Below, one piece after another: positions 23,334-40,610 of a stretch of 46,552 bases of DNA. Each line of letters starts with the position of its first letter. Within the stretch, counting starts at the first letter, position 1. Origin of the DNA: an uncultured Gammaproteobacteria bacterium. GTDB taxonomy: Bacteria; Pseudomonadota; Gammaproteobacteria; Arenicellales; JAANXG01. Under the pieces are notes generated by a model that did not search any database, was not told the DNA's origin, and was given only the letters and a program-made list of their open reading frames with translations. Location of the stretch: positions 1-46,552 of the forward strand of contig CAMYKW010000018.1 in assembly GCA_947259175.1 (NCBI GenBank). Reading direction: 5' to 3'. Made by a program: the position numbers and the translations under genes.

Positions 23334-24209
23334 CTATTCCGATCCGGTTGCAGCGATTTCCAGCACCGCCCGGGCGCGCTTTACCACCGGAACGTCAATA
23401 ACGTTGCCGTCCAATGATGTGGAGCCCCGGCCCAAACGTTCGGCCTTTTCGAACGTGGCTACCACGCGCCGTGCGTGCTCGACGTCTGCTTGGGATGGTG
23501 AAAATGCCCGATTGATGGACGCGACCTGAGCGGGATGGATGGCGAATTTGCCCTTGAACCCGCAGCGTTTGGCGCCCGCGGCATTCCTCTCGAGGCCGGC
23601 GTCGTCTTTGAATTTAAAATACGGCGTGTCCAACGCCAGTACGCCGGCCGCCCTTGCGGCGATACACACCGTATTGCGCGCGAACGCCAAATCCGCCTCC
23701 GACTCATCGCCCACGCGTTCAATCCCCATGTCATGGGTGAAGTCCTCTGCGCCAAAGGCGATAGCGACTATTCTCGCGCTGGCGGTGCAGATTTCATGAC
23801 AGTGAACGACCGCCTGCGCGGTCTCGATCCAGGGAATCAGCGGGATTTCTCCCGCCGCTAAATCGTGTTTGGACTCGAGCGCCGAGATCAGTTCACAGAT
23901 GTCGCGAATGTCCTGCGCGGTGCGAAGCTTACCAACTGAAATAGCGTCGATGGACTTTCCGATCACCGCCGCGAGGTCCTGCTCCATCAATCCCGACTGC
24001 AGCGAATTGACCCGTGGAATGACCCACGGACCGGCTGTTTGCAACTTCGCGAGGTGCGACGCAATAACTTGGCGTGCGTTTTGTTTCTCGGACTCCGGTA
24101 CCGAATCCTCCATGTCGGGCACGTACGCGTCCGGATGGAATCCCAACGCCTTTTGCAGCATGTTGGGCTTGTTGCCGGGCACGAAGAGAAGACTCCTCAG
24201 AATCGTCAC
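23334..24209 (-). CDS. CitE-like HpcH/HpaI-family lyase (malyl- or citramalyl-CoA lyase type)
   Basis: 291 residues. The start is GTG 24209, because AAAGGAGGTGA ends just before it; the frame opens earlier but through that ribosome site. CitE-family marks are RSLLFVPGNKPNML at the N-terminus, PDMEDSVP at about 31-38, the metal-binding AFGAEDFTHDMGIER at 151-165 (Glu155/Asp156), and a C-terminal GKFAIHPAQVASINRAF. Relatives cleave or form (3S)-malyl-CoA, citramalyl-CoA or beta-methylmalyl-CoA, giving acetyl-CoA plus glyoxylate or pyruvate. No citrate lyase alpha or gamma genes are nearby, so a stand-alone CoA-thioester lyase is likely. It is the last gene of the gntR-led run. Confidence 0.82.
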   Translation of the reverse strand: MTILRSLLFVPGNKPNMLQKALGFHPDAYVPDMEDSVPESEKQNARQVIASHLAKLQTAGPWVIPRVNSLQSGLMEQDLAAVIGKSIDAISVGKLRTAQDIRDICELISALESKHDLAAGEIPLIPWIETAQAVVHCHEICTASARIVAIAFGAEDFTHDMGIERVGDESEADLAFARNTVCIAARAAGVLALDTPYFKFKDDAGLERNAAGAKRCGFKGKFAIHPAQVASINRAFSPSQADVEHARRVVATFEKAERLGRGSTSLDGNVIDVPVVKRARAVLEIAATGSE

Positions 24210-24311
24210 GCTCACCTCCTTTGAGATCAATCTACTTCAACACGACCTCGGTACCTAATGACCTCGATCCGAAGACAACTGTCCGTTATCAATTACCCTG
24301 CGTCCCTCCGC

Positions 24312-25181
24312 CTAATGAACCATGACCGTCACGATCGTAGACTCGGCGAGCAAGTGACGAGTCACGCCGCCAAACAACATCTCCCGGGCGCGGGTATGGC
24401 TGAATCCGCCGACGACCAGCAAGTCCGTTCCCGCCCGCGAACATTGCTCGAGTATCTCGGGGCCGACGGACGCACCATGTTTCTGCAACCAGTGAATATC
24501 GGCATCAATCCCATGCCACGCCAGATAATCCAGCAGCAAGTCCGCACTCTCCTGTCTTTTCTTAGATGTTAGAACCGTGACCGTTTTCATCACGGGCAAA
24601 CACGACACCATCGTCCCCAGGGCGCGGGCTGCCTCCAGGCTGTCATTCCAGCCGAACGCCGCGTGTTCTACCTGTTTGGACTGCCACTGCGGTGGAACAA
24701 ACATGATCGGGCGTCCGGCGTCGAGCATCACTGCTTGCAGCGTATCTCCCGCCGGTGACAGGCGCAACCGGGACGGGCTGAGGTGGGGTCTGGCAACTAC
24801 AATCATGTCCGCCAGGCGGGCATGGTGGACCAGGACCTCACTGGGGCGGCCATGCCCCTCGCGCCAGGCGGCGGTGACACCCGCATTCGCTACGGGTTTG
24901 TCAGTGACCGTGACATCGTATCGTTTGCAGTGCTGCTCAAAAATTTCGCGAATCGCAGCCGCCTTATCCTCAGCATGCTCGGTGATCTCGTCTTCGAAGG
25001 TATGCTTCATCTTCGCCGAAAGCCGATCGAACATGAACGGCGCGACGTCCGTCGGCCGAGCTAAGGCATGCAATGCAACGATATGGGCGGCGAACCGTTC
25101 GGCGACCACGAACGCCGCATCCAACGCTTCCACGCTCGCTTCACTGCTATCCAAAGGAACCAGGATCGTTCTTATTGTCAT
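24312..25181 (-). CDS. Universal stress protein with two UspA domains
   Basis: 289 residues from ATG 25181. The first UspA domain begins TIRTILVPLDSSEASVEALDAAF and ends around MIVVARPHLS. The second spans about residues 165-289 and ends with DLLVVGGFSHTRAREMLFGG, a G-2x-G-type nucleotide-binding end, then VTRHLLAESTIVTVMVH. Tandem Usp proteins of this kind occur beside metabolic and redox operons in proteobacteria. It sits 50 bp after the ADP-forming ligase and 102 bp before the CitE-like gene on the same strand, so it is probably cotranscribed. Its job in the pathway is unknown. GTG 25199 is a less likely start. Confidence 0.85.
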   Translation of the reverse strand: MTIRTILVPLDSSEASVEALDAAFVVAERFAAHIVALHALARPTDVAPFMFDRLSAKMKHTFEDEITEHAEDKAAAIREIFEQHCKRYDVTVTDKPVANAGVTAAWREGHGRPSEVLVHHARLADMIVVARPHLSPSRLRLSPAGDTLQAVMLDAGRPIMFVPPQWQSKQVEHAAFGWNDSLEAARALGTMVSCLPVMKTVTVLTSKKRQESADLLLDYLAWHGIDADIHWLQKHGASVGPEILEQCSRAGTDLLVVGGFSHTRAREMLFGGVTRHLLAESTIVTVMVH

Positions 25182-25230
25182 TTCATCACCATTTCCCACC
25201 GGTATCTTTTGCGTTCATGCCCGTTCGCCG

Positions 25231-27363
25231 TCATAACAAACCGGCCCCTCGCGCCCACTGATATTTGGCACCCAGCACCGCTACCGGCAGCTCTGTTGTG
25301 TATGGGTAGGCCACAATTCCGCGTTCATACAGATACTCGGAGGCCTGTTCGACCTCTACATCACCGACCAGGGAGGCGACAATGGGTTTGTGAATACCTT
25401 TGCCGCGCGCCTCCTCCACCACCCGCGCCGTCAACTCCGCGAAGACCATCGGCGGCGTGATGATCGTGTGCCAATAGCCGAGAATCAACGCGTGGATGCG
25501 ATCGTCCTCGAGGCCGAGGCGAATCGTGTTTTCGTAAGTGGTCGGCGGTTCGCCGCCGGTGATGTCCACCGGGTTTCCCGAGGCGCCGAACGGCGGAATG
25601 TACTTCTTGAACGCCGTATCCAGATCATCAGGGAACTTCATCAACGACAAATCGTTGTCCACGCACGCGTCGGATAAAAGCACGCCGGACCCTCCGGCGC
25701 CGGTAATGATGACGATATCTTCGCCTTTGGGGGTCGGCAATATCGGCAGTCCGCGTGCGAATTGCAGCAAGTCATTCAGGCTCTTCGCGCGAATGACGCC
25801 GCTTTGGCGCAGCACATCGTCATAAATCTTGTCGTTACCCGCCAGCGCGCCGGTGTGCGACGCGGCGGCCCGCGCGCCCAGTTGCGTGCGGCCGGCCTTG
25901 AGCATCACCACCGGTTTCGTCTTGGACACCCGTTGGGCGACTTCGGCGAAACTTCGGCCGTCCTTGAGATCCTCGGCATGCATCGCCATGACCTGGGTAT
26001 TGTCATCCTGCTCGAAATAAGTCAGCAGATCGTCTTCGTCCAGATCGGACTTGTTGCCGAGCCCGACGATTGCGGAGACACCCATCTTGGTGGAGCGGCT
26101 GAACCCGATGATCGACATGCCGACGCCGCCGCTTTGCGACGACAACGCAACCTTGCCCTTGACGTCATAGGGCGTGCAGAATGTCGCGCACAAATTGGCG
26201 GGAGTGTAATAAAACCCGTAGATATTCGGACCCATAATGCGCACATTGTGCTTGCGAGCCACCGCCAATAATTCATCCTGCAGAGCTTTTTCTCCCACCT
26301 CGGCAAATCCCGATGGAATCATCACCGTCCCGGGAATACCCTTCTGACCCACCTCCTCCATTGCCGACGCGCAGAACTTCGCCGGCACTGCGAATACCGC
26401 CAGGTCGACTTCGCCGGGAATATCCAGAACGCTCTTGTATGCCTTCTTCCCCAGGATCTCATCGGCTTTGGGGTTAATGGGATAAATTTCGCCGCGGTAG
26501 CCTCCATTAATGAGATTCTTCATCACCGAGTTGCCGATCTTGCCCTCCGCGTCCGAGGCGCCAATCACCGCCACCGACCTTGGGTTCATGATCGGATTCA
26601 TTGCGGCGACGATTTCCTCGCGGCTCGGCCGATACAGCTCCTGCGGCGGATCAAAGTTGACCGATATCAGCGCATCCACCGCCGTGGCGCCATCCGTTCG
26701 CGCCATGATGGGATTCAAATCGACTTCCTCGATTTCAGGAAAATCGTTTACCAGATTGGATACATTCACGATGATCGACACCAGCGCGTCGCGGTTCACC
26801 GGCTGCGCACCGCGAACTCCCTGCAAGACTTCCGCCGCCTGGATGCCGTCCAGCATCGACCGCGCGTCCTGCGAGGACGTCGGCGCCAGGCGGAACGTGA
26901 TGTCCTTTAGCACCTCCACGAGAATCCCCCCGAGACCAAACGCAACCAATTTCCCGAAGCTCGGGTCGGTTACCGCGCCGACGATCACTTCCTGGGAATC
27001 GCCGGTCAGCATTTGTTGAATCTGGACTCCGGTCACCGAGGCATCCGGTTTGTAGGCGCGCGTATTGCCGATGATCGTGTCATACCCCGACCGCGCCTCG
27101 TCGGCGTTGGCAATGCCCACTAGCACGCCACCGGCCTCCGTCTTGTGCTGAATGTCGGGCGACACGATTTTCATGACCACCGGAAAACCTATCTGTTGTG
27201 CGATCTGCACCGCCTCGTCCGATGAGCTGGCCATACCTTCCTCCGGAAGCGGTATATCATAAGCGTCACATACTTTTTTACACTCTGGAGCGGTGAGCGA
27301 ACGGCGTCCTTCGCTCTTGACCTGCTCCAATACCACGCTGACATCTTCTCTTCGGTACGTCAC
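25231..27363 (-). CDS. ADP-forming acyl-CoA synthetase, beta-alpha domain order
   Basis: 710 residues from GTG 27363, which has AAAGGAG 7 bp upstream. The N-terminal ~240 residues form an ATP-grasp domain (APECKKVCDAYDIPLPEEG, FPVVMKIVSPDIQHKTEAGGV, VDLNPIMAR). Next comes a CoA-binding Rossmann domain (RSVAVIGASDAEGKIGNSV, about 262-280), then the succinyl-CoA-ligase-type domain with LSSQSGGVG and AASHTGALAG; His503 there is the expected phosphohistidine. The enzyme would convert an acid, ATP and CoA to acyl-CoA, ADP and Pi, or run backwards to make ATP. The order is the reverse of the alpha-beta order in Pat-type enzymes. It lies 85 bp after the CoA transferase. The substrate is unknown; a small acid such as acetate or glycolate is possible. 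Confidence 0.85.
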   Translation of the reverse strand: MTYRREDVSVVLEQVKSEGRRSLTAPECKKVCDAYDIPLPEEGMASSSDEAVQIAQQIGFPVVMKIVSPDIQHKTEAGGVLVGIANADEARSGYDTIIGNTRAYKPDASVTGVQIQQMLTGDSQEVIVGAVTDPSFGKLVAFGLGGILVEVLKDITFRLAPTSSQDARSMLDGIQAAEVLQGVRGAQPVNRDALVSIIVNVSNLVNDFPEIEEVDLNPIMARTDGATAVDALISVNFDPPQELYRPSREEIVAAMNPIMNPRSVAVIGASDAEGKIGNSVMKNLINGGYRGEIYPINPKADEILGKKAYKSVLDIPGEVDLAVFAVPAKFCASAMEEVGQKGIPGTVMIPSGFAEVGEKALQDELLAVARKHNVRIMGPNIYGFYYTPANLCATFCTPYDVKGKVALSSQSGGVGMSIIGFSRSTKMGVSAIVGLGNKSDLDEDDLLTYFEQDDNTQVMAMHAEDLKDGRSFAEVAQRVSKTKPVVMLKAGRTQLGARAAASHTGALAGNDKIYDDVLRQSGVIRAKSLNDLLQFARGLPILPTPKGEDIVIITGAGGSGVLLSDACVDNDLSLMKFPDDLDTAFKKYIPPFGASGNPVDITGGEPPTTYENTIRLGLEDDRIHALILGYWHTIITPPMVFAELTARVVEEARGKGIHKPIVASLVGDVEVEQASEYLYERGIVAYPYTTELPVAVLGAKYQWARGAGLL

Positions 27364-27448
27364 GCCAGGTCTCCTTTGTATTTTAGGCAGCCGATTCGTG
27401 CCCTCATCGAATTCATGCACTTACCGGTTTTTATTGAAAGTCGCCACG

Positions 27449-28726
27449 TCAAGCACGTAGCTCATGGTATTTCTCGATCTTGGGCGGCTGCTTGGCAAAT
27501 GCGCCTGACTCACGCAAATGCTGGATGTGTTCGTTCTCGTACCCGAGAACCTCCTTGAGAATGTCGTCTGTGTGCTCGCCAAGCAACGGGGACCGCTCCA
27601 CCTCCACCGGAGAATCCGAGAGTTTGATCGGACAACCGACGTTCAGGAATTCCCCGCGTTCCGGGTGCGGCACCTGGACAACCATCTCGCGCAGCGCAAC
27701 ATGAGTATCACGCACCAGATCGTCGGTGCTCATAATCGGGCCGCAGGGCACATCAATTTCATTGAGTATCTCCATCAGTTCCCATTTAGTGTGCTTGCTT
27801 GCGAACTCGCCGATAATTCGCCACATTTCCGGCTGATTCTTTCGCCTTACGTTGATGTCGATAAAGCGCGGGTCCTCGGCAAGTTCATCGCCACCCATGC
27901 GCTTGGCGAGCGCCTTCCATACATGTTCCTGCACCACCACATACAGGTAGTCGTTTGGGCCGCCGGGTTTGCACGGCACCGCATTCCCAAGCTGTCCGCC
28001 ACCGGAATCATTGCCGGCACGGGGCGCGAAGTCTTCAAATTTCTGGATTGAGTATTCCGGCAACGGGCCGCGTTCGATACGCTGATGATCGCGGAATTTC
28101 ACGCGGCACAGGTTCATCACGCAATCCATCATCGCGCACTCGACAAATTGCCCCTTGTCGGTGCGCTCGCGCTGAATCAAGGCCGCCAATATCCCCGCCA
28201 TCAGGTGGACCCCGGTGCCGGAGTCGCCTATCTGCGCACCGGTTGCCATCGGCGGCGCGTCGAATGCGCCGGTGGTGCTCATCGACCCGCCCATGGCTTG
28301 CGCGACATTCTCATAGGCCTTGAAATTCGCATACGGGCCCTCGTTGCCGAAACCTTTTATCGACGCCATCACGATCCTGGGATTGATCTCGTGCACACGC
28401 TCCCAGCCGAATCCGAGGCGATCGAGCACACCGGGACCGAAGTTTTCCATGACCACGTCACATGACTTGAGCAGGTCACTGAACACCTCTTTACCCATTG
28501 GATTCTTCAGGTTCACGGTGATTGAGCGCTTATTGCAGTTGAGCATTGTAAAGTACAAGCTGTCCGCATCCGGGACGTCCTGCAATTGCTTACGCGTGAC
28601 GTCTCCGGTCGGGGGTTCGAGCTTGATCACATCCGCTCCAAGAAAAGCCATCAGCTGGCTGCAGGTGGGACCGGCCTGTACATGGGTCATGTCCAGTACC
28701 CGGATTCCAGAAAGTGCTTTTTCCAC
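27449..28726 (-). CDS. Class III CoA transferase, formyl-CoA:oxalate CoA-transferase-like
   Basis: 425 residues of the CaiB/BaiF family. By eye it follows Oxalobacter Frc closely: GIRVLDMTHVQAGPTCSQLM (Gln17), SLYFTMLNCNKRSI, VVMENFGPGVLDRLGF, YENVAQAMGG, then GDSGTGVHLMAGILAAL with the catalytic Asp168 (Frc Asp169), and a GGGQ glycine loop near 245. Family chemistry is CoA transfer through an aspartyl-CoA anhydride, from formyl-CoA to oxalate in Frc. The residue aligned with Frc Trp48 appears to be Gln47, so the acceptor acid may differ. Start GTG 28726 with TAGGAGA upstream; it lies 15 bp after the TPP enzyme gene, so the two form an obvious pair. Confidence 0.85.
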   Translation of the reverse strand: MEKALSGIRVLDMTHVQAGPTCSQLMAFLGADVIKLEPPTGDVTRKQLQDVPDADSLYFTMLNCNKRSITVNLKNPMGKEVFSDLLKSCDVVMENFGPGVLDRLGFGWERVHEINPRIVMASIKGFGNEGPYANFKAYENVAQAMGGSMSTTGAFDAPPMATGAQIGDSGTGVHLMAGILAALIQRERTDKGQFVECAMMDCVMNLCRVKFRDHQRIERGPLPEYSIQKFEDFAPRAGNDSGGGQLGNAVPCKPGGPNDYLYVVVQEHVWKALAKRMGGDELAEDPRFIDINVRRKNQPEMWRIIGEFASKHTKWELMEILNEIDVPCGPIMSTDDLVRDTHVALREMVVQVPHPERGEFLNVGCPIKLSDSPVEVERSPLLGEHTDDILKEVLGYENEHIQHLRESGAFAKQPPKIEKYHELRA

Positions 28727-28741
28727 GACTATCTCCTACAG

Positions 28742-30493
28742 TTATTTGTACATTGTCTGCGCCTTGGTGCCCGGCGCGTATTCGTTGGGATCGACCCAGA
28801 TATTGATCACCGCAGACTTCCCGGTGCTCCGCACTGCTTCACGCGCCCGCTGCAGCGCGTGGGCGATTTCACCCGGTTGCCTGACCTCTTCCCCATAGCC
28901 GCCGAGCATCTCGGCGAATTTCGAGAACGGGACATCGCCCAGCAGGTTACCGACATCTCCGCGCTCGTTTCCGTACTTGGTAATCTGGCCGTAGCGGATC
29001 TGGTTCATGGCGGAGTTGTTACCGATTACCGCGATGTAGGGGGCGCCGAAGCGGTTGGCGGTCTCCATATCGAATGCGGTCATGCCGAACGAACCGTCCC
29101 CGTAGTAACACAATACTTCTTTCTGCGGGTGAACGAGTTTCGACGCCATCGCGAATCCGGTACCCACACCGAGAGACCCCAATGCCCCGGGGTCCATCCA
29201 GTTCCCCGGCGCCCGGGGTTGTACCGCCTGGGCGCTAATCGTAACGACGTCGCCGCCGTCGCCAATATAAATGGTGTCTTCGGTGAGGAATTCATTGAGC
29301 TCCCAGGCCACCCGGTAAGGGTGAATCGGATCTTTATCCGATTGGAACAAAGGCATCAGCTTTTCGGTCTTTTGGGTTTCCACTGCGCGCAGCTCCGCGA
29401 GCCAGGATTCGCGTCTCGCCGCACCGTTATCCGTCGCTGCGGATGCGGCATCGTGCACCGCCTGCAGTACCGCCCCCGGATCACCGACCAGACCCAAAGA
29501 CACGTCACGGTTCTTGCCCACGGTGCGGTAATCGAGATCGATCTGCACCACCGTCGCATCTGCCCGCAGCCGCTTGCCGTATCCCATGCGGAAATCGAAC
29601 GGCGTCCCTACGATAACGATTACGTCGGCCTTGTTGAACGCATCCCTTCGCGTGCGGTGAAAGTGGTGGGGATCGCCCGGCGGCAGGATGCCGCGTCCGG
29701 CGCCATTGAAGTAAGCGGGGATGTTCAAACCACGCACCAGGTCGATTGCCTGCTGGTGACCGCGGCAAGCCCATACCTGACTGCCGAGCAGAATGGCGGG
29801 ACGCTCGGAATTGACCAGCAGATCCGCCAACGCCTCGATATTGTCCGGATCCCCCGTAGACTTGGTCGACGCCCGATAGGCGCCGACCTTGGGTATCGTC
29901 GCGTTACCGACTTCGACTTCACGGTCGAGAATGTCACGTGGGATTTCCAGATATGAAGGGCCCGGGGCGCCGGCGAAACACTCGCGCGCGGCCATGGAGA
30001 TCATATCCGCCACACGCTCGGTGGAGCGCACGCTGGCGGCAAACTTCGTGATCGGCGACAGGATGTCTACGTGGGGCAGGTCTTGCAGGGAACCCATCTT
30101 GTGCTGCGTGAGTGCGCCTTGGCCTCCGATATGCAACACCGGGCTTTCCGAACGGAATGCGGTGGCAACGCCGGTTATGGCGTTGGTGAAACCGGGGCCG
30201 GCGGTAGTGACCACGCAACCGAGCCGCCCGGTCTGGCGCGCGTAACCGTCGGCGGCATGAGCCGCCGTCTGCTCGTGTCGAACATCGATGATGCGGATGT
30301 CCTCATCGACGCAGCCGTCATAGATATCGATGATATGACCGCCGCATAGCGTAAATATGGTGTCGATGCCCTCGTGTTTCAGCGCTTTGGCCACCAGATG
30401 CCCACCGGATATTACGTCGCCGGCGCGATTCTTCCTGGCCAGGGTATCGGTCGCCGTATCGGATACGTTTAAGTCTCTTGCTCGTGTCGACAT
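28742..30493 (-). CDS. TPP-dependent lyase/decarboxylase, 2-hydroxyacyl-CoA lyase (ILVBL)-like
   Basis: 583 residues. The catalytic Glu74 is in DVRHEQTAAHAADGYAR. The TPP-Mg motif is YYGDGSFGMTAF (GDG 465-467) ending in GNN at 491-493. It pairs with the Frc-like gene, as oxc does with frc in oxalate users. However, strings such as FTLCGGHIIDIYDG, VIVIVGTPFDFRMGYGK and QPRAPGNWMDPGALGSLGVG match ILVBL/HACL2-type proteins as I recall them, not Oxalobacter oxalyl-CoA decarboxylase. It could release formyl-CoA from oxalyl-CoA (plus CO2) or from a 2-hydroxyacyl-CoA (plus an aldehyde). Acetolactate synthase is unlikely because no small subunit or ilv genes are near. AGGAGA precedes ATG 30493. Confidence 0.8.
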   Translation of the reverse strand: MSTRARDLNVSDTATDTLARKNRAGDVISGGHLVAKALKHEGIDTIFTLCGGHIIDIYDGCVDEDIRIIDVRHEQTAAHAADGYARQTGRLGCVVTTAGPGFTNAITGVATAFRSESPVLHIGGQGALTQHKMGSLQDLPHVDILSPITKFAASVRSTERVADMISMAARECFAGAPGPSYLEIPRDILDREVEVGNATIPKVGAYRASTKSTGDPDNIEALADLLVNSERPAILLGSQVWACRGHQQAIDLVRGLNIPAYFNGAGRGILPPGDPHHFHRTRRDAFNKADVIVIVGTPFDFRMGYGKRLRADATVVQIDLDYRTVGKNRDVSLGLVGDPGAVLQAVHDAASAATDNGAARRESWLAELRAVETQKTEKLMPLFQSDKDPIHPYRVAWELNEFLTEDTIYIGDGGDVVTISAQAVQPRAPGNWMDPGALGSLGVGTGFAMASKLVHPQKEVLCYYGDGSFGMTAFDMETANRFGAPYIAVIGNNSAMNQIRYGQITKYGNERGDVGNLLGDVPFSKFAEMLGGYGEEVRQPGEIAHALQRAREAVRSTGKSAVINIWVDPNEYAPGTKAQTMYK

Positions 30494-30551: not shown

Positions 30552-31247
30552 TCAGGAGTCCAGATAATCGGCGTACTGCTTGACGTGCTCGGCCAGATTC
30601 AAGGCGTGCTCACGCACCAGCTGCTCGGCTAAATCGGTATTTCTGTTTTCCAGGGCTTCGATAATCCTCGTGTGATCAATAATTGATTGCGACGCGCGAT
30701 TACGTTCTTTAATGGTTTGCGAACGTATCGAACGCATGTGGATAAACAGACCATCCGCGATCTGTATGAGTAATTCACACTTACTCAGACGCATGATCGC
30801 CTGATGAAATTCAATATTGGTCTGCGAATACTCGTCGATCTTCGCCCCGGGCTCGTTGGCGTCATCGAAGGTGGTGAACAACTTGCGCAAACTGGCCAGT
30901 TCCTCGTCGGTGGCTTGCTTGGTGGCCAGGCGCGCCGCCATGCCTTCAAGCGCGGCCCACACGCAAATCATTTCGAGGATTTCCCGTTTGGTCTTACGCA
31001 CCACAAAAGCACCCCGGCGCGGAATGGACTGCACCAGCCCTTCCTGCTCCAAGCGCGATATGGCCTCGCGCACCGGCGTACGGCTGACGCCAAGCTCCTC
31101 CGCCAATTTGCGTTCGTCAAGCCGGGGCGGCTCGGGTGCGGCATAGATGTCCGTGGAGGTGATCGCCTGTTTCAGGGCGCCATAAACCCTGTCCTTTAGT
31201 ACGTATTGGACGTCCATCGGCCGCAGGGGAATCTTCAGCGTCGACAT
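30552..31247 (-). CDS. GntR-family regulator, FCD subfamily
   Basis: 231 residues. The N-terminal winged helix-turn-helix is clear (LDERKLAEELGVSRTPVREAISRLEQEGLVQSIPRRGAFV, about 43-82). It is followed by an FCD ligand-binding domain with the expected helices and metal-type residues (NIEFHQAIMRLS, IIDHTRIIEALENRN, REHALNLAEHV). FadR/FCD regulators usually respond to small organic acids and repress catabolic genes. It is the first gene of the run gntR - TPP enzyme - CoA transferase - ADP ligase, and a palindrome overlapping its promoter suggests self-regulation. Two similar palindromes before tctC and the formate dehydrogenase genes make it the likely local regulator. An internal ATG at codon 12 is an alternative start. 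Confidence 0.92.
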   Translation of the reverse strand: MSTLKIPLRPMDVQYVLKDRVYGALKQAITSTDIYAAPEPPRLDERKLAEELGVSRTPVREAISRLEQEGLVQSIPRRGAFVVRKTKREILEMICVWAALEGMAARLATKQATDEELASLRKLFTTFDDANEPGAKIDEYSQTNIEFHQAIMRLSKCELLIQIADGLFIHMRSIRSQTIKERNRASQSIIDHTRIIEALENRNTDLAEQLVREHALNLAEHVKQYADYLDS

Positions 31248-31379: not shown

Positions 31380-32891
31380 TCACGCCGCCCCGCGAGCGCC
31401 GACTCGGTCTTTGATCAATTTCAGCAGCGGCAATACGAATAACACCAGCGCCACCACCATGATCGGCGCGGAGATCGGCCGTTCGAAAAACACCATGAGG
31501 CTGCCATTGGATATCAACAAAGCCTGGCGCAACGAGGTCTCGGCCAGCGGACCGAGCACAATGGCCAACACCGCCGGCGCCAGGGGATACTCGAGCTTGC
31601 GCATCAGATAACCGACGACGCCAAATATCAGGATCAACCATACGTCGTGCATGTCCTGGGTCGGCGCGTAGCCGCCCACGATGCACAACACGAAAATGAT
31701 CGGCGCCAGCACGGTGAACGGCAGCCGTAGCACCCAGATAAATGCGGGAATAAACGCCACATTAATCAACAAGGAAAATAGGTTGGCTGCGTACAAGCTG
31801 GCGATCAGTCCCCACACGAATTCCTGGTGCTCGACAAACAGCATCGGTCCGGGCTCCAGCCCCCAGATCACCATACCGCCCAACAAAATGGCGGTGGTGG
31901 GGGAACCCGGAATCCCCAAGGTCAGCATCGGCAGCATGGAACCGGTACTGGCGGCATTATTCGCCGACTCCGGCGCCGCCACACCTTCCGGATTGCCTTT
32001 ACCAAAGGAGTCCGGGTCTTTGGATAATGTCTTCGCCACACCGTAGGCCATCAGTGATCCGGGGGTAGCGCCGGCGGCGGGGAGAATACCCACGAAGTAT
32101 CCGAGAAAAGAACCCACTATCACCGATTTGAACGTCTCTTTGAGCGTGCGCAGATCATCGATGATCCTGCGCACCGTCACCGTGGCTTGGGAAATCTGCA
32201 CATCTCCCTTGCTGCTCTCGATGGTCCACAACATCTCGCCGATGCCGTAAATGCCAATCGCCAAAACCAGGAAATTAATGCCATGCAAGAACCCCGGTAT
32301 GTCTCCAAAGATCAACCTCGGTTGGCCGCTGATGATGTCGAGACCCACGGCGCTGAACACCAAGCCGATAAATATCGAAAACAGGGTCTTCGGGATATCA
32401 TCGCCACCCAAGCCAATGAACGTGGCAAAAGCCAACATCATCAGCGCGAATTCCTCCGCGGCTCCAAACGCCAGCGCCACCGCCGCCAACGGCGGTGCAA
32501 ACAGGGTAAACAGAATCACCGAAATCGTTCCGCCGATGAACGACGCGGTCGCCGCAGTAATCAGCGCTTTATCGGCCAGGCCCTGCATCGCCATCGGTCG
32601 TCCGTCAAAGGTGGTGGCAACGGCGGTGGACGCACCAGGTATACCGAGCATGATGGAGCTGATGGCGCCGCCGTACATCGCCCCGTAATAGATGGCGGCG
32701 AGGAAAATGATCGCGCCGGTGGGCGGCACCAGGAACGTCATCGGCAGCAGGATCGCCACGCCGTTTACCGAGCCAAGACCCGGCATGGCGCCGATGAACA
32801 AGCCCAAGGCGCACCCGAAAATCACCAGTCCCAGATTCATCGGCTGCAACGCAATGGCGAATCCCTGGATGAGGTGATCGAGTACTTCCAT
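31380..32891 (-). CDS. tctA: Tripartite tricarboxylate transporter, large membrane subunit
   Basis: 503 residues of TctA type, with about 12 hydrophobic segments. Family strings include GAMPGLGSVNGVAILLPMTF near the N-terminus, YYGAMYGGAISSIMLGIPG, GYFVGILPAAGATPGSLMAYG and MLTLGIPGSPTTAILLGGM; the repeated LGIPG motifs are characteristic. It forms the Na+- or H+-driven channel of a solute-binding-protein-dependent importer for carboxylates. It is the last gene of tctC-tctB-tctA, 8 bp after tctB. The gap to gntR downstream (31248-31379) holds the operator and promoter for gntR. The substrate is set mainly by TctC and cannot be read here. Confidence 0.93.
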   Translation of the reverse strand: MEVLDHLIQGFAIALQPMNLGLVIFGCALGLFIGAMPGLGSVNGVAILLPMTFLVPPTGAIIFLAAIYYGAMYGGAISSIMLGIPGASTAVATTFDGRPMAMQGLADKALITAATASFIGGTISVILFTLFAPPLAAVALAFGAAEEFALMMLAFATFIGLGGDDIPKTLFSIFIGLVFSAVGLDIISGQPRLIFGDIPGFLHGINFLVLAIGIYGIGEMLWTIESSKGDVQISQATVTVRRIIDDLRTLKETFKSVIVGSFLGYFVGILPAAGATPGSLMAYGVAKTLSKDPDSFGKGNPEGVAAPESANNAASTGSMLPMLTLGIPGSPTTAILLGGMVIWGLEPGPMLFVEHQEFVWGLIASLYAANLFSLLINVAFIPAFIWVLRLPFTVLAPIIFVLCIVGGYAPTQDMHDVWLILIFGVVGYLMRKLEYPLAPAVLAIVLGPLAETSLRQALLISNGSLMVFFERPISAPIMVVALVLFVLPLLKLIKDRVGARGAA

Positions 32892-32899
32892 GGTCAGGG

Positions 32900-33397
32900 C
32901 TATAGAAAGATGTCGTAGAGGGGATAGAAAAGTGGTTCGGTAAATCCCTTGGGGAGGGTGATCTTCAGGGCAATCTCAAAGAAGAAAAACGCTACGATCG
33001 GCGTCGCCACGGCGATCACACCGGTGGTCAGCCACTGATGCCCCCCCATGTAGCGCATATAGAAAACCATGAACAGGGGGATGGAAACATAGACCCCGAC
33101 GATGTGCATCAGCCCGATCATCACCGTCAGCGAACCGGCCACCAGCAAAAACATGCGCAAGGTCTGGTGGTCCATGTATGGATCAGTGGATACCGATACC
33201 GTGCTGGAGCGCCGGAACCAGCGCACCAGGATCCAAACGCAGCACACCAGCATTCCGGCGGACAACCAGAACGGGAACGCCCCACCGCCCGGCCCTTCTT
33301 CAGGGATCCAGCCGATGGGGAGTTCTGCGCTTTTCCACATCAAATAGGCCGAGAACAGCCCCATCACCACCGCCATCACCAATTCGGCTTTGCGCAT
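32900..33397 (-). CDS. tctB: Tripartite tricarboxylate transporter, small membrane subunit
   Basis: 165 residues with four predicted membrane helices (VMAVVMGLFSAYLMW; FPFWLSAGMLVCCVWILV; FLLVAGSLTVMIGLM; VIAVATPIVAFFFFEIAL). This matches TctB-family length and the typical GxGFFP-like turn, here GGGAFPFWL. It partners TctA in the membrane. The ribosome site is weak. It sits 45 bp after tctC and 8 bp before tctA. Confidence 0.88.
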   Translation of the reverse strand: MRKAELVMAVVMGLFSAYLMWKSAELPIGWIPEEGPGGGAFPFWLSAGMLVCCVWILVRWFRRSSTVSVSTDPYMDHQTLRMFLLVAGSLTVMIGLMHIVGVYVSIPLFMVFYMRYMGGHQWLTTGVIAVATPIVAFFFFEIALKITLPKGFTEPLFYPLYDIFL

Positions 33398-33442: not shown

Positions 33443-34420
33443 TTAAATCTCGCCGATATCCTTCAACATCTTTTGATGGTTGTCCTTCTCACGTTGCCAG
33501 TAGGACTTCAGGTCACCCCCGGTGAGGAATTCGCCCTGCAGGCTCTTCTTTTTCATATAACCCTGCCACTCATCGGTTTGGTAGACCTTCTTGAACACGT
33601 TGCGGTAGTAGTCTTCGGCCTCTTTGCTCATTCCCGGCGCACCTACCACGCTGCGTTGCATGAAGTACACAAAGTCCTTACCCAACTCGCGGAAAGTCGG
33701 TGCATTTTTGAACAGCGGCAGACGGTCAGGGGTAAAGGCCGCCAACGGCACGGTGTTCCCCGCCTCATAAAAACCGAGTTGTTCCGAAGGATTGTTGACC
33801 GTCGAATTGGCGTGCTTCCCGGCCAGCTCCTTTGCGACACGGCCACCACCCTTGAACGGGATGTATTTCATGTCCAGGCCATAGGCCTTGTTGAGAAAAT
33901 TGGTGAGCAACTGATCCTCTTGCCCCTTACCGGTACCGGCCATGATCCAGTTATTACCGGCGGACTTGGCCGCCTTAACGAAATCTTCCACATTCTTGAT
34001 CCCCGAGTCCTTGTGAACCCACAGCAGGAACGTGTCCTCAGCCATGCGGCCGATCGGCGAGAAGGTCATGACGTCTACACCCAAACCGGGTTGACGCAGC
34101 GGCGTCGTGTAGAAACTGTTCAGGGTGACCATGATCGTATGGTCGTCGCCGGCTTTCTGCTTCAGATGCACCAGGGCTTCGGCGCCGGAGCCACCCGGCT
34201 TGTTGATGGGAATAAACGGTTTGGAAGCAAGCTTGTGCTTTTCGATGATGCTTTGCATCAACCGCGCCATCTTGTCGGCGCCACCGCCTTTACCGGCCAT
34301 AATGACAAAATCCACGGGTTTCTTCGGCTCCCAAGCGGCCAACGCCGCGCCCGAAAAAGCCCATGCCGCGATTGCCGCCAGCACGGCAGGCAAGACTGCC
34401 GTTTTACACAGTGTCTTCAT
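33443..34420 (-). CDS. tctC: Tripartite tricarboxylate transporter, solute-binding protein
   Basis: 325 residues from ATG 34420, chosen for the strong ribosome site AGGAGGAGA directly upstream; the frame is open further but through the promoter region. A signal peptide (TAVLPAVLAAIAAWAFSGAALA) is followed by the TctC/Bug fold: PVDFVIMAGKGGGADKMAR, NKPGGSGAEALVHLKQ, a mid-protein GTGKGQEDQLLTNFLN and PFKGGGRVAKELAGKHA. Bug proteins bind carboxylates between two lobes in the periplasm. The AGKGGGADK binding-loop segment differs from the usual GGxxD start, so the ligand may be unusual. It is first in the transporter run, with an operator 116 bp upstream. Confidence 0.9.
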   Translation of the reverse strand: MKTLCKTAVLPAVLAAIAAWAFSGAALAAWEPKKPVDFVIMAGKGGGADKMARLMQSIIEKHKLASKPFIPINKPGGSGAEALVHLKQKAGDDHTIMVTLNSFYTTPLRQPGLGVDVMTFSPIGRMAEDTFLLWVHKDSGIKNVEDFVKAAKSAGNNWIMAGTGKGQEDQLLTNFLNKAYGLDMKYIPFKGGGRVAKELAGKHANSTVNNPSEQLGFYEAGNTVPLAAFTPDRLPLFKNAPTFRELGKDFVYFMQRSVVGAPGMSKEAEDYYRNVFKKVYQTDEWQGYMKKKSLQGEFLTGGDLKSYWQREKDNHQKMLKDIGEI

Positions 34421-34535
34421 TGATCTCCTCCTAAAGGTGTTATCGGTAACCCGATTATGACCCATACGGGTTATTTGTGCCCCGCACCCGAGTTGGGGTG
34501 CAACGCGGGGATTGTCGAATTCATGATCGCGATGC

Positions 34536-34554
34536 TTGGTATATCGTATACCAA
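34536..34554 (-). promoter_or_regulatory. GntR operator overlapping the tctC promoter
   Basis: TTGGTATATCGTATACCAA is a perfect 8+3+8 palindrome. On the - strand it holds a TATACG -10 (34545-34550), with TTGCGG (34567-34572) 16 bp upstream as a -35. It lies between the sucD-like stop and tctC, and leaves a leader of about 115-120 bases. Confidence 0.75.
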
Positions 34555-34601
34555 TGTCGATGTGCCCCGCAATACGCCGCGTGCGAGGAATGCGGCGGGT
34601 T

Positions 34602-35480
34602 CTAACTGCGGGCGAGCACTTCCGCCATGGTGGCGCCAATAGTCACCGGCGACTCGGCAATATGGACCCCGGCATTGCGCAGTGCGTCCACCTTGACCTC
34701 GGCGCCGCCGGTGCCGTGCTGAATGATCGCCCCTGCATGACCCATGCGCCGTCCCGGCGGCGCAAAGCGGCCGGCGACGTACGCGACCACCGGTTTTCCA
34801 CCGGGATTGGCGCGCAGGTAATCGGCCGCTTGTTCCTCCGCCTCGCCGCCGATCTCCCCGATGAGGATCACCCCTTCGGTCTCGTCGTCGTCCATAAACA
34901 ACGCCAGACAATCGCAGAAGCTCATCCCCTGTACCGGATCGGCGCCGATACCGATACAAGTGGTCTGACCGAGGTTGGCGCGGGTGGTCTGCTCCACCGC
35001 CTCATAGGTGAGCGTCCCGGTGCGGGAAACGATGCCGATCCGTCCGCGGCGGAAAATTTCCTGCGGCATGATGCCGATGCGGCACTCATTGGGCGTGATG
35101 ATTCCAGGACAATTCGGTCCGATCAAGCGGGAATTGCTTGTTTCCAGGGCCCGTTTCACGCCGACGATGTCCAACACCGGAATGCGCTCGGTCACGCACA
35201 CAATCAACGGTACACCGGCGTCAATCGCTTCGTGGATCGCCTCCGCCGCATGGATCGGCGGCACGAAAATTACGCTGGCGTCAGCGCCGGTGGCGTCGAC
35301 CGCCTCCTGGACCGTATTGAAAACCGGCAATCCCAGGTGCCTGGCGCCGCCCTTCCCCGGCCTGACACCGCCGACCATTTTGGTACCCGAAGCCAGCGCC
35401 TGTTCGGTATAAAAAGTGCCCTGCTGCCCGGTTATACCCTGGCAGATTACTTTGGTATTCGCGTCAACTAACACCGCCAT
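34602..35480 (-). CDS. Succinyl-CoA/malate-CoA ligase, alpha subunit-like
   Basis: 292 residues of SucD/MtkB type. The CoA-binding N-terminus reads [19 protein letters not shown] and [10 protein letters not shown]. Next come [29 protein letters not shown] (Thr where SucD usually has Ser), GIGADPVQG and RRMGHAGAI with the phosphohistidine. With the beta subunit it would form a succinyl-CoA-type ligase: acid + ATP + CoA to acyl-CoA + ADP + Pi. Because the neighbours are not TCA-cycle genes and a malyl-CoA-type lyase is nearby, malate-CoA ligase activity is a fair alternative. It begins 32 bp after the beta subunit gene. Confidence 0.85.
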
Positions 35481-35512: not shown

Positions 35513-36766
35513 TCAATTCACGCCTCCTGCCTTGCGCACCCGCTGCCACCACGAACGACGTTGTATCGCCTTGACCTGTTTGGCGGCTGTAACGGCTTTG
35601 TCCGCCGCGTCGGCAAGATCAGAGGCAAAAACAATGTCCGGCCCGGCGTCCTTGAGCCGGCGGATTGCGAAAGTCGCATTGGTGCCGGCTAGCCTGGCAA
35701 TCAGCGGCACCTTGAGGGGGGTTTCGCGATTGGCCATGATTATTGCATCTGCGATCGTGTCACAGCGCATGATGCCGCCACCGAACACATTCACCAAAAT
35801 GCTCGCCACACCCGGATCCGACAACAACAGCCGCAACGCATCTTTGACCCGTCCCACCTGCGCGACCGGCGGCACATCGAGAAAGTTCGCCGGCTCGCCG
35901 CCAAATAGATGAACTGCGTCGAGGGTCGCGAGCGCGGTACCCGCGCCACTGGCCAGGCAGCCGATGTTTCCGTCCAACTTGACGTAATTGATCCCATGTT
36001 GCGCCGCCTCGAGTTCCCCGAGCTGTAGTTCCGCGTCGTCGCGCAACGCTTGTATATCCGGATGCCGGAACAGGGCGTTATCGTCGAACGTCAAGGTTGC
36101 GTCCAACGCCATCACCTCACCCGTGGCGGTCACCGCTAGCGGGTTGATTTCGATCAGTGAAGCGTCCAGCTCGGTGAATATCTGATACAAGGTCTGTATA
36201 ACGCCGACGGCGGCTTCCGCCTGCCCCCCTTTTAGCGCCAGTTCGGACGCCAACTCCTGAGCAGTATCTGTTGCAAGGCCTTCGTTGGGGTCGATCGCGC
36301 GTTTAATGACCGACTCCGGATGCTCCTTTGCGATCGACTCGATGTTGACGCCACCCGCCGCCGATGCAACCAATGTGACCCGGCTCGTGTGACGGTCTAC
36401 CAGCATGCCCAGGTAAAGCTCACTGGCGACGTCACAGGCCCGTTCAACGTACACCCGTTCCACGTCACTCCCCGAGGGCCGGGTTTGGGAAGTAATCAGT
36501 GCGTGACCCAGCATCTCACCGGCGTGTTTTTCCACATCGGTGATGGAATTCGCGAGTCGCACGCCGCCTTCGCCCTGGGGGGCACCGTCGAAGTGTCCGG
36601 AGCGGCGCCCGCCCGCGTGGATCTGGGCCTTGATCATCCACGCGCCGCCGCCCATGTCCCGCGCGATACGTGTCGCTTCATCAACGGTCGAGGCAACACC
36701 GCCATCGGGTACCGGCACCCCGTATTTGGCCAGGAGTTGTTTGGCTTGATATTCGTGAATATGCAT
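35513..36766 (-). CDS. Succinyl-CoA/malate-CoA ligase, beta subunit-like, divergent
   Basis: 417 residues with an ATP-grasp fold: MHIHEYQAKQLLAKYGVPVP, WMIKAQIHAGGR, YVERACDVASELYLGMLVDR, LIEINPLAV and ILVNVFGGGIMRCD. Two changes stand out against SucC/MtkA. About eight extra residues occur in the nucleotide loop after IHAGGR (SGHFDGAPQGEGG), and PPVA replaces the conserved GGGA after NFLDV. The protein is ~30 residues longer than SucC, with a basic tail. These differences suggest an acid substrate other than succinate. AGAGGAAAA precedes ATG 36766. The gene lies 27 bp after the quinone oxidoreductase gene. Confidence 0.85.
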   Translation of the reverse strand: MHIHEYQAKQLLAKYGVPVPDGGVASTVDEATRIARDMGGGAWMIKAQIHAGGRRSGHFDGAPQGEGGVRLANSITDVEKHAGEMLGHALITSQTRPSGSDVERVYVERACDVASELYLGMLVDRHTSRVTLVASAAGGVNIESIAKEHPESVIKRAIDPNEGLATDTAQELASELALKGGQAEAAVGVIQTLYQIFTELDASLIEINPLAVTATGEVMALDATLTFDDNALFRHPDIQALRDDAELQLGELEAAQHGINYVKLDGNIGCLASGAGTALATLDAVHLFGGEPANFLDVPPVAQVGRVKDALRLLLSDPGVASILVNVFGGGIMRCDTIADAIIMANRETPLKVPLIARLAGTNATFAIRRLKDAGPDIVFASDLADAADKAVTAAKQVKAIQRRSWWQRVRKAGGVN

Positions 36767-37850: not shown

Positions 37851-40610
37851 TCACGGGGGAGTCGCCGAGTCTACACGAGCCGCGCAGAATTTAAATTCAG
37901 GAATCTTGCCGTAAGGGTCAAGCGCCGGATTGGTCAGCACGTTCGCCGCCGCTTCGGCGTAACAGAACGGGATGAATATCACACCGGACGGCACGGCGGT
38001 ATCCGCACGCGCCTTGAGCTCGATGCCGCCCCGCCGGGTCGAAACTTTGACCGTTCCGCCCGCCGGAATACCCAGACGGTGCAGATCGTCGGGTGACAGG
38101 CTGGCCACCGCCTCGGGCTCGATCGCGTCCAGAACGCTGGCGCGTCGCGTCATGGCGCCGGTATGCCAGTGTTCGAGTTGCCGTCCGGTGGTGAGAATCA
38201 TCGGGTACTCATCGTCCGGAGTCTCGTCGGGGGGGGATATTGTTGTCGGAACCAGCCTACCGCGACCGCTGGTGGTGGGAAACCGGTCTGAGAACACGAT
38301 GTCCTCACCCGGGGTATCCGGCCCACCGCACGGGTAAGTGACGGCATTTTGCACTTCCAGCCGTTCCCAGGTGATATGGCTCAAAGACGGCATGACTTGA
38401 GCCATCTCGGCGAACACGTCACGCGGATGACTGTAATTCCACGCCAATCCGATACCCCGCGCCATCTCCTGAATGATCCACCAATCCTGTCGCGCGCCCC
38501 CCGGCGTTTGCAGCGCGCGCCTGCCAAGTTGCACCTGGCGGTTGGTGTTGGTGACGGTTCCGTCTTTTTCCGGCCATGCCGAAGCCGGGAGTATCACGTC
38601 GGCGAAAAACGCGGTTTCGGTCACAAACAGGTCCTGGACGACGAGGAGTTCCAGCTTTGCGAGCGCGTGGCGTGCATGGCTGACATCAGGATCGGACATC
38701 GCCGGGTTCTCGCCCATGATATACATGCCCTTGACCTCGCCGGCGTGGATCGCGGACACGATTTCCACCACCGTCAGGCCTTTTTTCGGATCGAGCGCAT
38801 TGCGCCACAGGCCTTCGAAACGAACACGGGCATCGGCCGATTCGACGGGTTGATAGTCGGGATACATCATGGGTATCAGGCCGGCGTCGGAGGCGCCTTG
38901 CACGTTGTTCTGACCGCGCAGCGGGTGGAGCCCGGTGCCCGGCCGGCCCACCTGTCCGGTAACCAGCGCCAGTGCAATCAAGCAACGCGCGTTGTCCGTG
39001 CCGTGCACGTGCTGCGATATACCCATGCCCCAAAAGATGATCGCCGCATCCGCCTGGGCGTAGGTACGCGCCACGGTGCGGATGGTCTCGGCGTCGACGC
39101 CGCAAATCGACGCCATCGCTTCGGGCGTATAGGCGGTAATGTGCCGCCGTAAGGCGTCAAATCCTTCGGTGTGCGCGTCGACATATTTCCGGTCATAGAG
39201 TTGCTCTGAGATGATGACGTTCAGCAAGGCATTGAGCAGGGCGACATCCGTGCCCGGGTTGAACTGCAGCATGTGCCGGGCATGGCGCTTGAGCGCCTGC
39301 CCCCTGGGATCCATTACGATCAAGGTCGCGCGCCTGGCCGCTTGTTTGAAATACGTGGCCGCGACCGGGTGATTTTCCGTCGGGTTGGCGCCGATCACGA
39401 TGATCACATCGGCGTCCTTGACCGCCGTAAACGGCGCGGTGACCGCGCCGGAGCCGATACCCTCCAGCAATGCCGCGACCGAAGAGGCGTGGCACAGGCG
39501 GGTGCAGTGATCGACATTATTGGTGCCGAAGCCGGTGCGCACCAGTTTCTGAAATAAGTACGCCTCTTCGTTGGAACACTTCGCGGAACCCAGTCCGGCC
39601 AACGCCTGGTGACCGTCGCGGTCCCGGATCGCCTTGAGACCTCCGGCCGCGATACGCAACGCCTCCTCCCAGCTTGCTTCGCGAAAATGGGTCAGCGGCC
39701 TTGCGGGATCGAGATCCAGATCGCCGTGTTTAGGCGCATCTTCGCGGCGGATCAACGGCGTCTCGAGACGGTGGGGGTGGCGCACGTAATCGAATCCAAA
39801 GCGCCCCTTGATACACAAGCGATTCTCGTTTGCCGGTCCCTCCCGGCCCTGGACCGCCACGATCCGATCGTGGTCGACCTGATAGGTAATCTGACATCCA
39901 ACCCCGCAGTACGGACAGACACTATCTACCGCCTGCAATGGGTCCGTTTTACCGATCCCGTCGTCATCAACGAGTGACGCCTCCATCAATGCCCCTGTGG
40001 GACAGGCCTGCACGCACTCACCGCATCCCACGCAACTGCTTTGCCCCATCGGATCATCGAAATCGAACACGATTTTTGCGTCATGACCACGATTCGCCAT
40101 GCCGATAACATCATTGACCTGCACTTCGCGGCACGCGCGAACACACAGATTGCAGTGTATGCACGCATCCAAAGCGACGTGCATCGCAGCGTGACTGATG
40201 TCCGCGGCCGGCGCAGCGCGCGACGGCAGGCGGCTGCGCTCTACGCCCAGGCGCTGCGCCCATTGCCACAACCGGGAATCCCTGTCGTGCGCGAGACTGC
40301 GCGGCGGTTGATCCGCCAGCAACAGTTCCATCACCATGCGCTGTGCAGCGCCGGCGCGCGCGTTATCGGTATGCACAACCATTCCGGGGGTCGGCGTGCG
40401 CAAACACGACGCCGCGAGCGTTCGTTCGCCTTCGATCTCGACAACGCAGGCCCGGCAATTGCCGTCGGCGCGATACCCGGGCGCCGGCGAATAACACAGA
40501 TGGGGAATATCCACGCCGCAACGCTTCGCGGCTTGCCAAATCGTTTCGTCCGGCAGGGCCTCGACCTCGCGGCCGTCGAGCACAAACTGTATCGGGCCAG
40601 GACTAACCAC
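37851..40610 (-). CDS. fdsA: NAD-dependent formate dehydrogenase, catalytic alpha subunit
   Basis: 919 residues. A NuoG-like N-terminus carries a [2Fe-2S] site (HLCYSPAPGYRADGNCRAC) and ferredoxin-type [4Fe-4S] sites (CIHCNLCVRAC, CVGCGECVQACPTG). The catalytic part begins with CPYCGVGC and continues with FGTNNVDHCTRLCHASSV, where the Cys in LCHASS is the likely Mo/W ligand (a Cys enzyme, no Sec). Later bis-MGD segments include GANPTENHPV, GMGISQHVHGTDN and PLRGQNNVQGASD. Together with the NuoEF-like partner it oxidises formate to CO2 with NAD+. The GTG start overlaps the partner's stop by 8 bp. No fdsD or fdhD gene is visible here, so maturation factors must be elsewhere. Confidence 0.93.
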   Translation of the reverse strand: MVSPGPIQFVLDGREVEALPDETIWQAAKRCGVDIPHLCYSPAPGYRADGNCRACVVEIEGERTLAASCLRTPTPGMVVHTDNARAGAAQRMVMELLLADQPPRSLAHDRDSRLWQWAQRLGVERSRLPSRAAPAADISHAAMHVALDACIHCNLCVRACREVQVNDVIGMANRGHDAKIVFDFDDPMGQSSCVGCGECVQACPTGALMEASLVDDDGIGKTDPLQAVDSVCPYCGVGCQITYQVDHDRIVAVQGREGPANENRLCIKGRFGFDYVRHPHRLETPLIRREDAPKHGDLDLDPARPLTHFREASWEEALRIAAGGLKAIRDRDGHQALAGLGSAKCSNEEAYLFQKLVRTGFGTNNVDHCTRLCHASSVAALLEGIGSGAVTAPFTAVKDADVIIVIGANPTENHPVAATYFKQAARRATLIVMDPRGQALKRHARHMLQFNPGTDVALLNALLNVIISEQLYDRKYVDAHTEGFDALRRHITAYTPEAMASICGVDAETIRTVARTYAQADAAIIFWGMGISQHVHGTDNARCLIALALVTGQVGRPGTGLHPLRGQNNVQGASDAGLIPMMYPDYQPVESADARVRFEGLWRNALDPKKGLTVVEIVSAIHAGEVKGMYIMGENPAMSDPDVSHARHALAKLELLVVQDLFVTETAFFADVILPASAWPEKDGTVTNTNRQVQLGRRALQTPGGARQDWWIIQEMARGIGLAWNYSHPRDVFAEMAQVMPSLSHITWERLEVQNAVTYPCGGPDTPGEDIVFSDRFPTTSGRGRLVPTTISPPDETPDDEYPMILTTGRQLEHWHTGAMTRRASVLDAIEPEAVASLSPDDLHRLGIPAGGTVKVSTRRGGIELKARADTAVPSGVIFIPFCYAEAAANVLTNPALDPYGKIPEFKFCAARVDSATPP

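Follow-up and report, generated by a model that had tools for sequence, protein, structure and literature searches.

A proposed oxalyl-CoA decarboxylase of independent descent encoded beside formyl-CoA transferase in an uncultured gammaproteobacterium

In this work we ask which reaction is catalysed by a ThDP-dependent (TPP) enzyme that is encoded directly beside a formyl-CoA transferase (Frc) gene in an uncultured Gammaproteobacteria bacterium (Arenicellales; JAANXG01). The window, by which we mean the whole stretch of DNA analysed, comprises 46,552 nucleotides (contig CAMYKW010000018.1 of assembly GCA_947259175.1, forward strand). A preliminary description of this DNA had read the enzyme as a relative of 2-hydroxyacyl-CoA lyase 2 (HACL2/ILVBL) and not as a classical oxalyl-CoA decarboxylase (OXC). 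Our analyses suggest that the gene probably encodes a second oxalyl-CoA decarboxylase (OXC-II), independent of OXC in its descent and non-orthologous to it, for which we infer the reaction itself. The gene, the clade to which it belongs, the coupling of that clade to Frc, the presence of oxalate-type neighbours in part of it and the failure to detect OXC in many of its carriers are all observed. The features of the region are as follows.

23334..24230, minus strand: CitE/HpcH-like C-C lyase (NCBIfam and Pfam profiles)
24312..25199, minus strand: universal stress protein with two Usp stretches (Pfam Usp)
25231..27420, minus strand: ADP-forming acyl-CoA ligase, fused subunits, 729 aa (Pfam; below all NCBIfam cut-offs listed)
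27449..28726, minus strand: Frc formyl-CoA transferase, 425 aa (TIGR03253, 580.6 bits, over the cut-off of 504.2)
28742..30493, minus strand: ThDP-dependent enzyme, proposed non-orthologous oxalyl-CoA decarboxylase, 583 aa (family profiles, Pfam, PDB sequence matches, tree, alignment)
30552..31247, minus strand: GntR/FCD transcriptional regulator (Pfam)
31380..32891, minus strand: TctA of a tripartite carboxylate transporter (PF01970, 492 bits)
32900..33397, minus strand: TctB (PF07331, 68 bits)
33443..34639, minus strand: TctC solute receptor (PF03401, 80 bits, residues 136-379)
34602..35480, minus strand: SucD-like CoA ligase alpha subunit (TIGR01019, over cut-off)
35513..36766, minus strand: SucC-like CoA ligase beta subunit (TIGR01016, over cut-off)
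37851..40610, minus strand: formate dehydrogenase alpha subunit (TIGR01591, 745.8, over 666.25)
40603..42306, minus strand: NuoF-like subunit (below profile cut-offs)

The interval 28742-30493, to which the enzyme had been assigned, does hold a genuine open reading frame, but on the minus strand (ATG at 30493, end at 28742); translation of the plus strand of this interval does not give the protein, in which Pfam recognises three TPP-enzyme domains. The gene starts 58 bp past the GntR gene and Frc starts 15 bp past its stop, each start being preceded by a Shine-Dalgarno-like GGAG. All likely genes from 42306 to 23334 share the minus strand, in the order formate dehydrogenase subunits, quinone oxidoreductase-like gene, SucC/SucD-like genes, TctC/B/A, GntR, TPP enzyme, Frc, ADP-forming acyl-CoA ligase, Usp and CitE-like gene. 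The identification of the neighbour as an Frc homologue is upheld by its profile score, and in alignment it shares the GDS and GGGQ motifs of E. coli Frc. The malate-CoA ligase model scores 439.8, below its 604, on the SucC-like subunit. Since the TctC reading frame overlaps the SucD-like gene, its annotated start is probably too far upstream, and the NuoF-like subunit probably belongs to the same formate dehydrogenase as the alpha subunit. The ADP-forming ligase could either prime oxalyl-CoA or make ATP from formyl-CoA; the places of the Usp protein and of the CitE/HpcH-like lyase in the pathway are uncertain. Elsewhere, the window encodes an arylsulfotransferase (ASST) family protein (9632-11494) and a long protein of 1091 residues that contains a Cds6 C-terminal NTF2-like domain and, by eye, near-identical internal repeats (19802-23077), and a tRNA search of the window found none.

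The window protein is matched by 51 NCBIfam models, and among the best 25 of these none is over its cut-off. The best, PRK05858 'acetolactate synthase' (NF004516), gives 453.7 bits against a cut-off of 587; the AcHACL-type or actinobacterial HACL model NF058623 gives 347.4 against 600, a value that a Methylibium protein exceeds with 741.8; and the OXC model TIGR03254 gives 225.5 against 739.4. Among eight plasmid records with a match of at least 60% identity, three name a 'thiamine pyrophosphate-binding protein' and five list no gene there. With model scores below cut-off and annotations vague or missing, the warning that an automated label would hide the identity of this protein proved apt. 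None of the labels OXC, HACL and acetolactate synthase (ALS) should be given to it.

Its best PDB sequence matches are AcHACL structures, and by alignment it shares 34.8% identity with AcHACL, 34.6% with a Bosea relative and 24-27% with five OXCs. Identity to ILVBL, represented in alignment and tree by a sequence which we take to be that of the human protein and which carries Ile554 and Glu557, is 32.6%, so ILVBL is not a nearer relative of the window protein than AcHACL is. Three segments had been quoted as matching human ILVBL and differing from OXC (GGHIIDIYDG and two others). All are present letter for letter, and all differ from OXC, the first and third by alignment with the O. formigenes and E. 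coli enzymes and the second by eye; against this ILVBL sequence, the second agrees at 10 of 17 letters and the third at 10 of 15, but the first at GGHI only.

In a tree of 41 rows, the 16 clade rows group together at 100/100, apart both from a branch of OXC and RuHACL-like rows (100/100) and from the AcHACL branch (100/100), and the clade still stands apart in a tree without ILVBL and three other long rows. The first of these trees has ILVBL as the sister of the clade at 92/76, a placement that is not firm for this long-branched row. AU tests reject a grouping of the clade with OXC (p 2.5e-7) and with OXC plus the RuHACL-like row (p 0.0013), and do not reject one with the AcHACL group (p 0.07). 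The view that this is not a classical OXC is supported both by profile and by tree, in which the window protein fell outside the OXC branch; assignment to HACL2/ILVBL holds only insofar as the protein lies on the HACL2/AcHACL side. The structure model (mean pLDDT 77, pTM 0.74; helix 497-505 predicted, with pLDDT below 50) matches OXC, HACL, benzaldehyde lyase, ALS and glyoxylate carboligase (Gcl) folds all at Z 32-36 among the 50 matches listed, so that subfamilies are not separable by fold. Two more distant plasmid loci were also encountered. A Bosea plasmid (L113) carries a PRK05858-like TPP enzyme (35% identity) beside CoA transferase and MmgE/PrpD genes, a different cluster, and a plasmid of the halophilic archaeon Natrinema zhouii (L133) carries an AcHACL-branch enzyme that keeps Glu at the AcHACL E493 place, with an AMP-binding ligase and a cobalamin mutase, a cluster resembling the 2-hydroxyisobutyrate pathway.

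The clade itself is tight and mostly proteobacterial, with further members in SAR324, Binatia and Actinomycetota. In the host's order and genus, 25 of 60 genomes, its own included, carry the clade gene at 73% identity or more, four as fragments, and the next protein after the clade stands at 34%. A scan of named genomes returned at least 526 relatives. The 80 that we kept share 76-93% identity, many come from metagenome bins, and their titles name Gamma-, Alpha- and Betaproteobacteria, SAR324, Binatia, 'Deltaproteobacteria' and other groups. Further members were found in plasmid records of Cupriavidus metallidurans, Phyllobacterium and Caballeronia (73-77%) and of Streptomyces and Nonomuraea (66-68%).

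Genomic context was examined over the 80 loci of these relatives (L028-L107). Frc occurs in 74 of them. The sequence leaves room of 1300 bp or more in 74 loci, and in 71 of these Frc directly follows the clade gene downstream (L040, L051 and L100 being the exceptions), a pairing that recurs in Streptomyces and Nonomuraea. A GntR homologue is present in 67 of the 80 loci, TctA in 34, an OxlT/OFA homologue in 22, an ADP-forming acyl-CoA ligase in 18, formate dehydrogenase alpha in 13 and a CitE/HpcH-like lyase in 10. The ligase likewise neighbours the clade gene in Streptomyces and Nonomuraea. A PanE-like reductase occurs in 26; PanE2, such a reductase, reduces oxalyl-CoA in Methylobacterium. 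In Phyllobacterium zundukense the clade gene is accompanied by frc, oxlT, sucCD, an acyl-CoA ligase and a 2-dehydropantoate 2-reductase-like gene. OxlT/OFA is found in 18 of 19 Paraburkholderia/Burkholderia loci, and in all six proteobacterial loci checked (L110, L091, L098, L109, L092 and L061) OxlT is over the TIGR04259 cut-off; the Streptomyces OFA transporter falls below the OxlT cut-off (136 against 335). No OxlT/OFA homologue was found in the locus DNA of 58 of the 80 loci, nor any OxlT among the genes examined around the window TPP gene; these absences and the low Streptomyces score count against the proposed role. None of the 80 loci has both OxlT/OFA and TctA, as if the transporters replace each other, and 24 have neither in their locus DNA.

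Within the host's order, Frc lies away from the clade gene, on another contig, in three of 20 loci (L015, L019 and L023). Frc over cut-off was detected in 34 of the 60 genomes, comprising 24 of the 25 with the clade gene and 10 of the 35 others (Fisher p 1.3e-7, uncorrected for kinship). OXC over cut-off was found in none of the 60; one genome (G023) holds an OXC cut by the contig end, beside its Frc. Nine of the 34 Frc genomes have neither OXC nor the clade gene (Frc regions L140-L148), and some of these regions keep TctABC, PanE-like or SucCD genes around Frc, with all three in L145. The nine genomes, and the three loci with Frc elsewhere, weigh against the proposal.

Consistent with replacement, OXC over cut-off was absent from 41 of 48 clade genomes, a set with many draft or metagenome-assembled genomes of unstated completeness; the seven with both genes are all Paraburkholderia. 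Among the 41, G074 holds a 517-bit relative whose score with the broader OXC model PRK09259 is over cut-off (561.6 against 557). Among 117 genomes of the Paraburkholderia group, the clade gene is found in 30 and OXC in 87: 11 have both, 19 the clade gene only, 76 OXC only and 11 neither, a count that agrees for the 115 with gyrB and amounts to a negative association (Fisher p 2.3e-7). Bicupin oxalate decarboxylase occurs in three of the 19 clade-only genomes. On the gyrB tree of 115 genomes, 0.7 independent pairs agree with this direction, 3.0 run opposite to it and 8.2 show no difference, giving a median p of 0.5 from pairs too few to reach 0.05. As the Fisher signal is lost on phylogenetic pairing, the exclusion is not significant after this correction, and we read it as direction, not proof.

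Two carriers of the clade gene are published oxalate users. B. tuberum LMG21444 and B. kururiensis LMG19447 are listed as oxalate users by Kost et al. (PMC3886118, Table 1), as are P. tuberum LMG21444 and P. kururiensis KP23 (given as LMG 19447) in a 2026 ISME J paper (PMC13184526, Table 2). The genomes bearing those strain names (L091 in G093 and L098 in G099) contain the clade gene, Frc and OxlT, and a search of both for OXC and bicupin oxalate decarboxylase found neither. The family probably degrades oxalate in bacteria without the textbook OXC. The 2026 paper (PMC13184526) describes several oxalotrophic strains without oxc, takes oxlT as the better marker of oxalotrophy and cites Robertson & Meyers for the view that oxalate degradation requires neither FRC nor OXC. 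In some carriers, growth on oxalate could depend on oxalyl-CoA reduction of the PanE type; these last two points weigh against the proposal. The published knock-out of oxc in P. phytofirmans PsJN abolished oxalotrophy, which at first sight speaks against the clade. The published knock-out primer matches one of the 117 genomes (G182, which we take as PsJN) within a canonical OXC gene, and the clade gene was not found in that genome; the result therefore concerns canonical OXC and says nothing against the clade. In the literature searched, mostly outside subscription papers, we found no earlier description of the clade as an oxalate enzyme.

What the enzyme does to its substrate can be approached through its active site, in which AcHACL residues are given by the PDB chain numbering minus 11, as judged from named residues. 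The ThDP glutamate (Glu74) is kept in 43 of 43 clade rows, both Gcl rows having Val. Arg282 matches R273 of AcHACL, a CoA contact, and is present in all 16 clade rows of the comparison. The stretch ending past this residue is 23 residues long in every row of the clade, OXC and HACL groups; it spans 30-31 residues, without the Arg, in ALS, Gcl, pyruvate oxidase and Xsc rows, and 26 and 29, likewise without it, in the relatives L131 and L134. The short loop and Arg282 point to a CoA thioester substrate. A second CoA-contact arginine of AcHACL, R417, is Ala421 in the clade and Gly in two Actinomycetota rows, which counts against the proposed reaction.

A rival reading is a 2-hydroxyacyl-CoA lyase of HACL2/AcHACL type, in which Frc would load a 2-hydroxyacid from formyl-CoA and the enzyme would cleave the thioester to formyl-CoA and a carbonyl compound. 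AcHACL is the closest solved relative by sequence, its grouping with the clade survives the AU test, all 43 clade rows retain its acyl-site residues H44, T88, L127 and Q128 (as H53, T97, L136 and Q137), and Tct transporters carry carboxylates, all of which count for a lyase. The glutamates discussed as acid/base catalysts, however, are gone: in all 43 clade rows E493 of AcHACL is replaced by Ile499 and E557 of HACL2 by Gly502, whereas each of the seven AcHACL-branch rows has Glu at the first of these positions (the Methylibium protein among them checked against the family cut-off, the other six named from the tree). HACL2/ILVBL is characterised by Ile554 together with Glu557 one helix turn past it, according to PMC8760513. 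The loss is not decisive, since AcHACL E493A is reported to lose only about tenfold activity. It does suit a decarboxylase, because the OXC decarboxylation step needs no such acid/base proton transfer, according to PMC8760513; lacking a shuttle acid, the site would by inference favour decarboxylation. OxlT beside the clade gene and oxalate growth without detectable OXC also argue against a lyase, and the genomic surroundings (Frc, OxlT/OFA and formate dehydrogenase) favour oxalate over 2-hydroxyacids as the substrate side. We consider the lyase reading distinctly unlikely, and the HACL2 function implied by the preliminary description is not supported for a protein with both glutamates replaced and a context of oxalate catabolism.

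A second alternative, which we judge very improbable, is a carboligase of oxalate assimilation that would condense glyoxylate, formed by oxalyl-CoA reduction, with a second glyoxylate or with a formyl-CoA unit. The PanE-like reductase in 26 of 80 loci would fit this role, as would the condensation of formyl-CoA with aldehydes by an engineered OXC described in PMC8760513; against this, Glu74 is kept where Gcl has Val, coupling to Frc (71 of 74) exceeds that to PanE, and the host's own genome has two glyoxylate carboligases. That genome, in which no OXC over cut-off was found, encodes in addition a biosynthetic ALS, another enzyme of ALS type (PRK08322) and a sulfoacetaldehyde acetyltransferase, each of these enzymes being over a cut-off, so that an ALS or Gcl role for the clade gene becomes less likely. 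An ALS-like enzyme standing beside Frc without an oxalate role is hardly credible, as the score with PRK05858, although the best NCBIfam model, is below its cut-off, the longer ALS/Gcl loop is absent, the CoA Arg is kept, the host has both ALS-type enzymes and the Frc pairing recurs in Streptomyces and Nonomuraea.

The proposed oxalyl-CoA decarboxylase would nevertheless differ from OXC in its substrate contacts. OXC Y120, E121 and Y483 are absent (L136, Q137 and I499 in the window protein), as is S553, whose pairing is uncertain (A578, with no Ser nearby), so that oxalyl recognition would need reinvention. Judged by alignment, on which we ran the active-site comparison suggested earlier, the site is neither the known OXC site nor the known HACL site. 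A C-terminal QTMYK, possibly an active-site lid, is invariant in 43 of 43 clade rows, which were retrieved with two search patterns, a C-terminal peptide among them, and it is also present in 20 alignment rows and in Streptomyces and Nonomuraea proteins found by other means.

Together these features suggest a cycle in which Frc would charge oxalate with the CoA of formyl-CoA, the ThDP enzyme would decarboxylate oxalyl-CoA to formyl-CoA and CO2, and the formyl-CoA produced would recharge Frc. Formate would exit via OxlT or be oxidised by formate dehydrogenase. In the host, the Tct transporter may import oxalate in place of OxlT.

A wider scenario, which we regard as unlikely as a whole, is that the clade represents a second, independently evolved OXC family spread across several phyla, which has replaced OXC in many carriers and explains oxc-less oxalotrophs, and whose ligase variant may couple formyl-CoA breakdown to ATP. 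If true, ATP formation from formyl-CoA via the ADP-forming ligase would be a new energy-conservation route from oxalate. The clade could explain how some oxalate-eating bacteria manage without the textbook enzyme, and it would be overlooked wherever oxalate degradation is surveyed by counting oxc genes. It also supplies a named candidate gene in two strains with oxalate use on record, and gives those who engineer OXC or the lyases a natural point of comparison, as a CoA-type ThDP scaffold without the OXC tyrosines or the lyase glutamates.

Compared with known systems, the window protein resembles each in part. PRK05858 (NF004516) gives the top NCBIfam score, yet one below cut-off, and the CoA-type features do not support its ALS label. 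RuHACL-type lyases (6xn8 and the 8vz- entries; row L122) share the CoA-dependent ThDP fold and the CoA Arg, but the RuHACL-like row L122 groups with OXC and not with the clade. Human HACL2/ILVBL is alike in the Ile at the E493 place and in two of the three quoted segments, and differs in E557, here Gly502, and in an identity of about 33%. The AcHACL type (NF058623) provides the best PDB sequence match (about 35% identity) and the shared H44, T88, L127 and Q128; unlike it, the window protein has Ile for E493 and Ala for R417 and scores below the family cut-off, and the clade has oxalate-type neighbours where Methylibium has a mutase cluster. From OXC (TIGR03254; O. formigenes 2c31, E. coli 2q27) the protein is separated by its 24-27% identity, a score far below cut-off, other active-site residues and a position outside the OXC branch, yet it shares with OXC the ThDP fold, the CoA-type loop and Arg, the catalytic Glu, the Frc partner, in part of the clade the OxlT partner, and the reaction that we propose.
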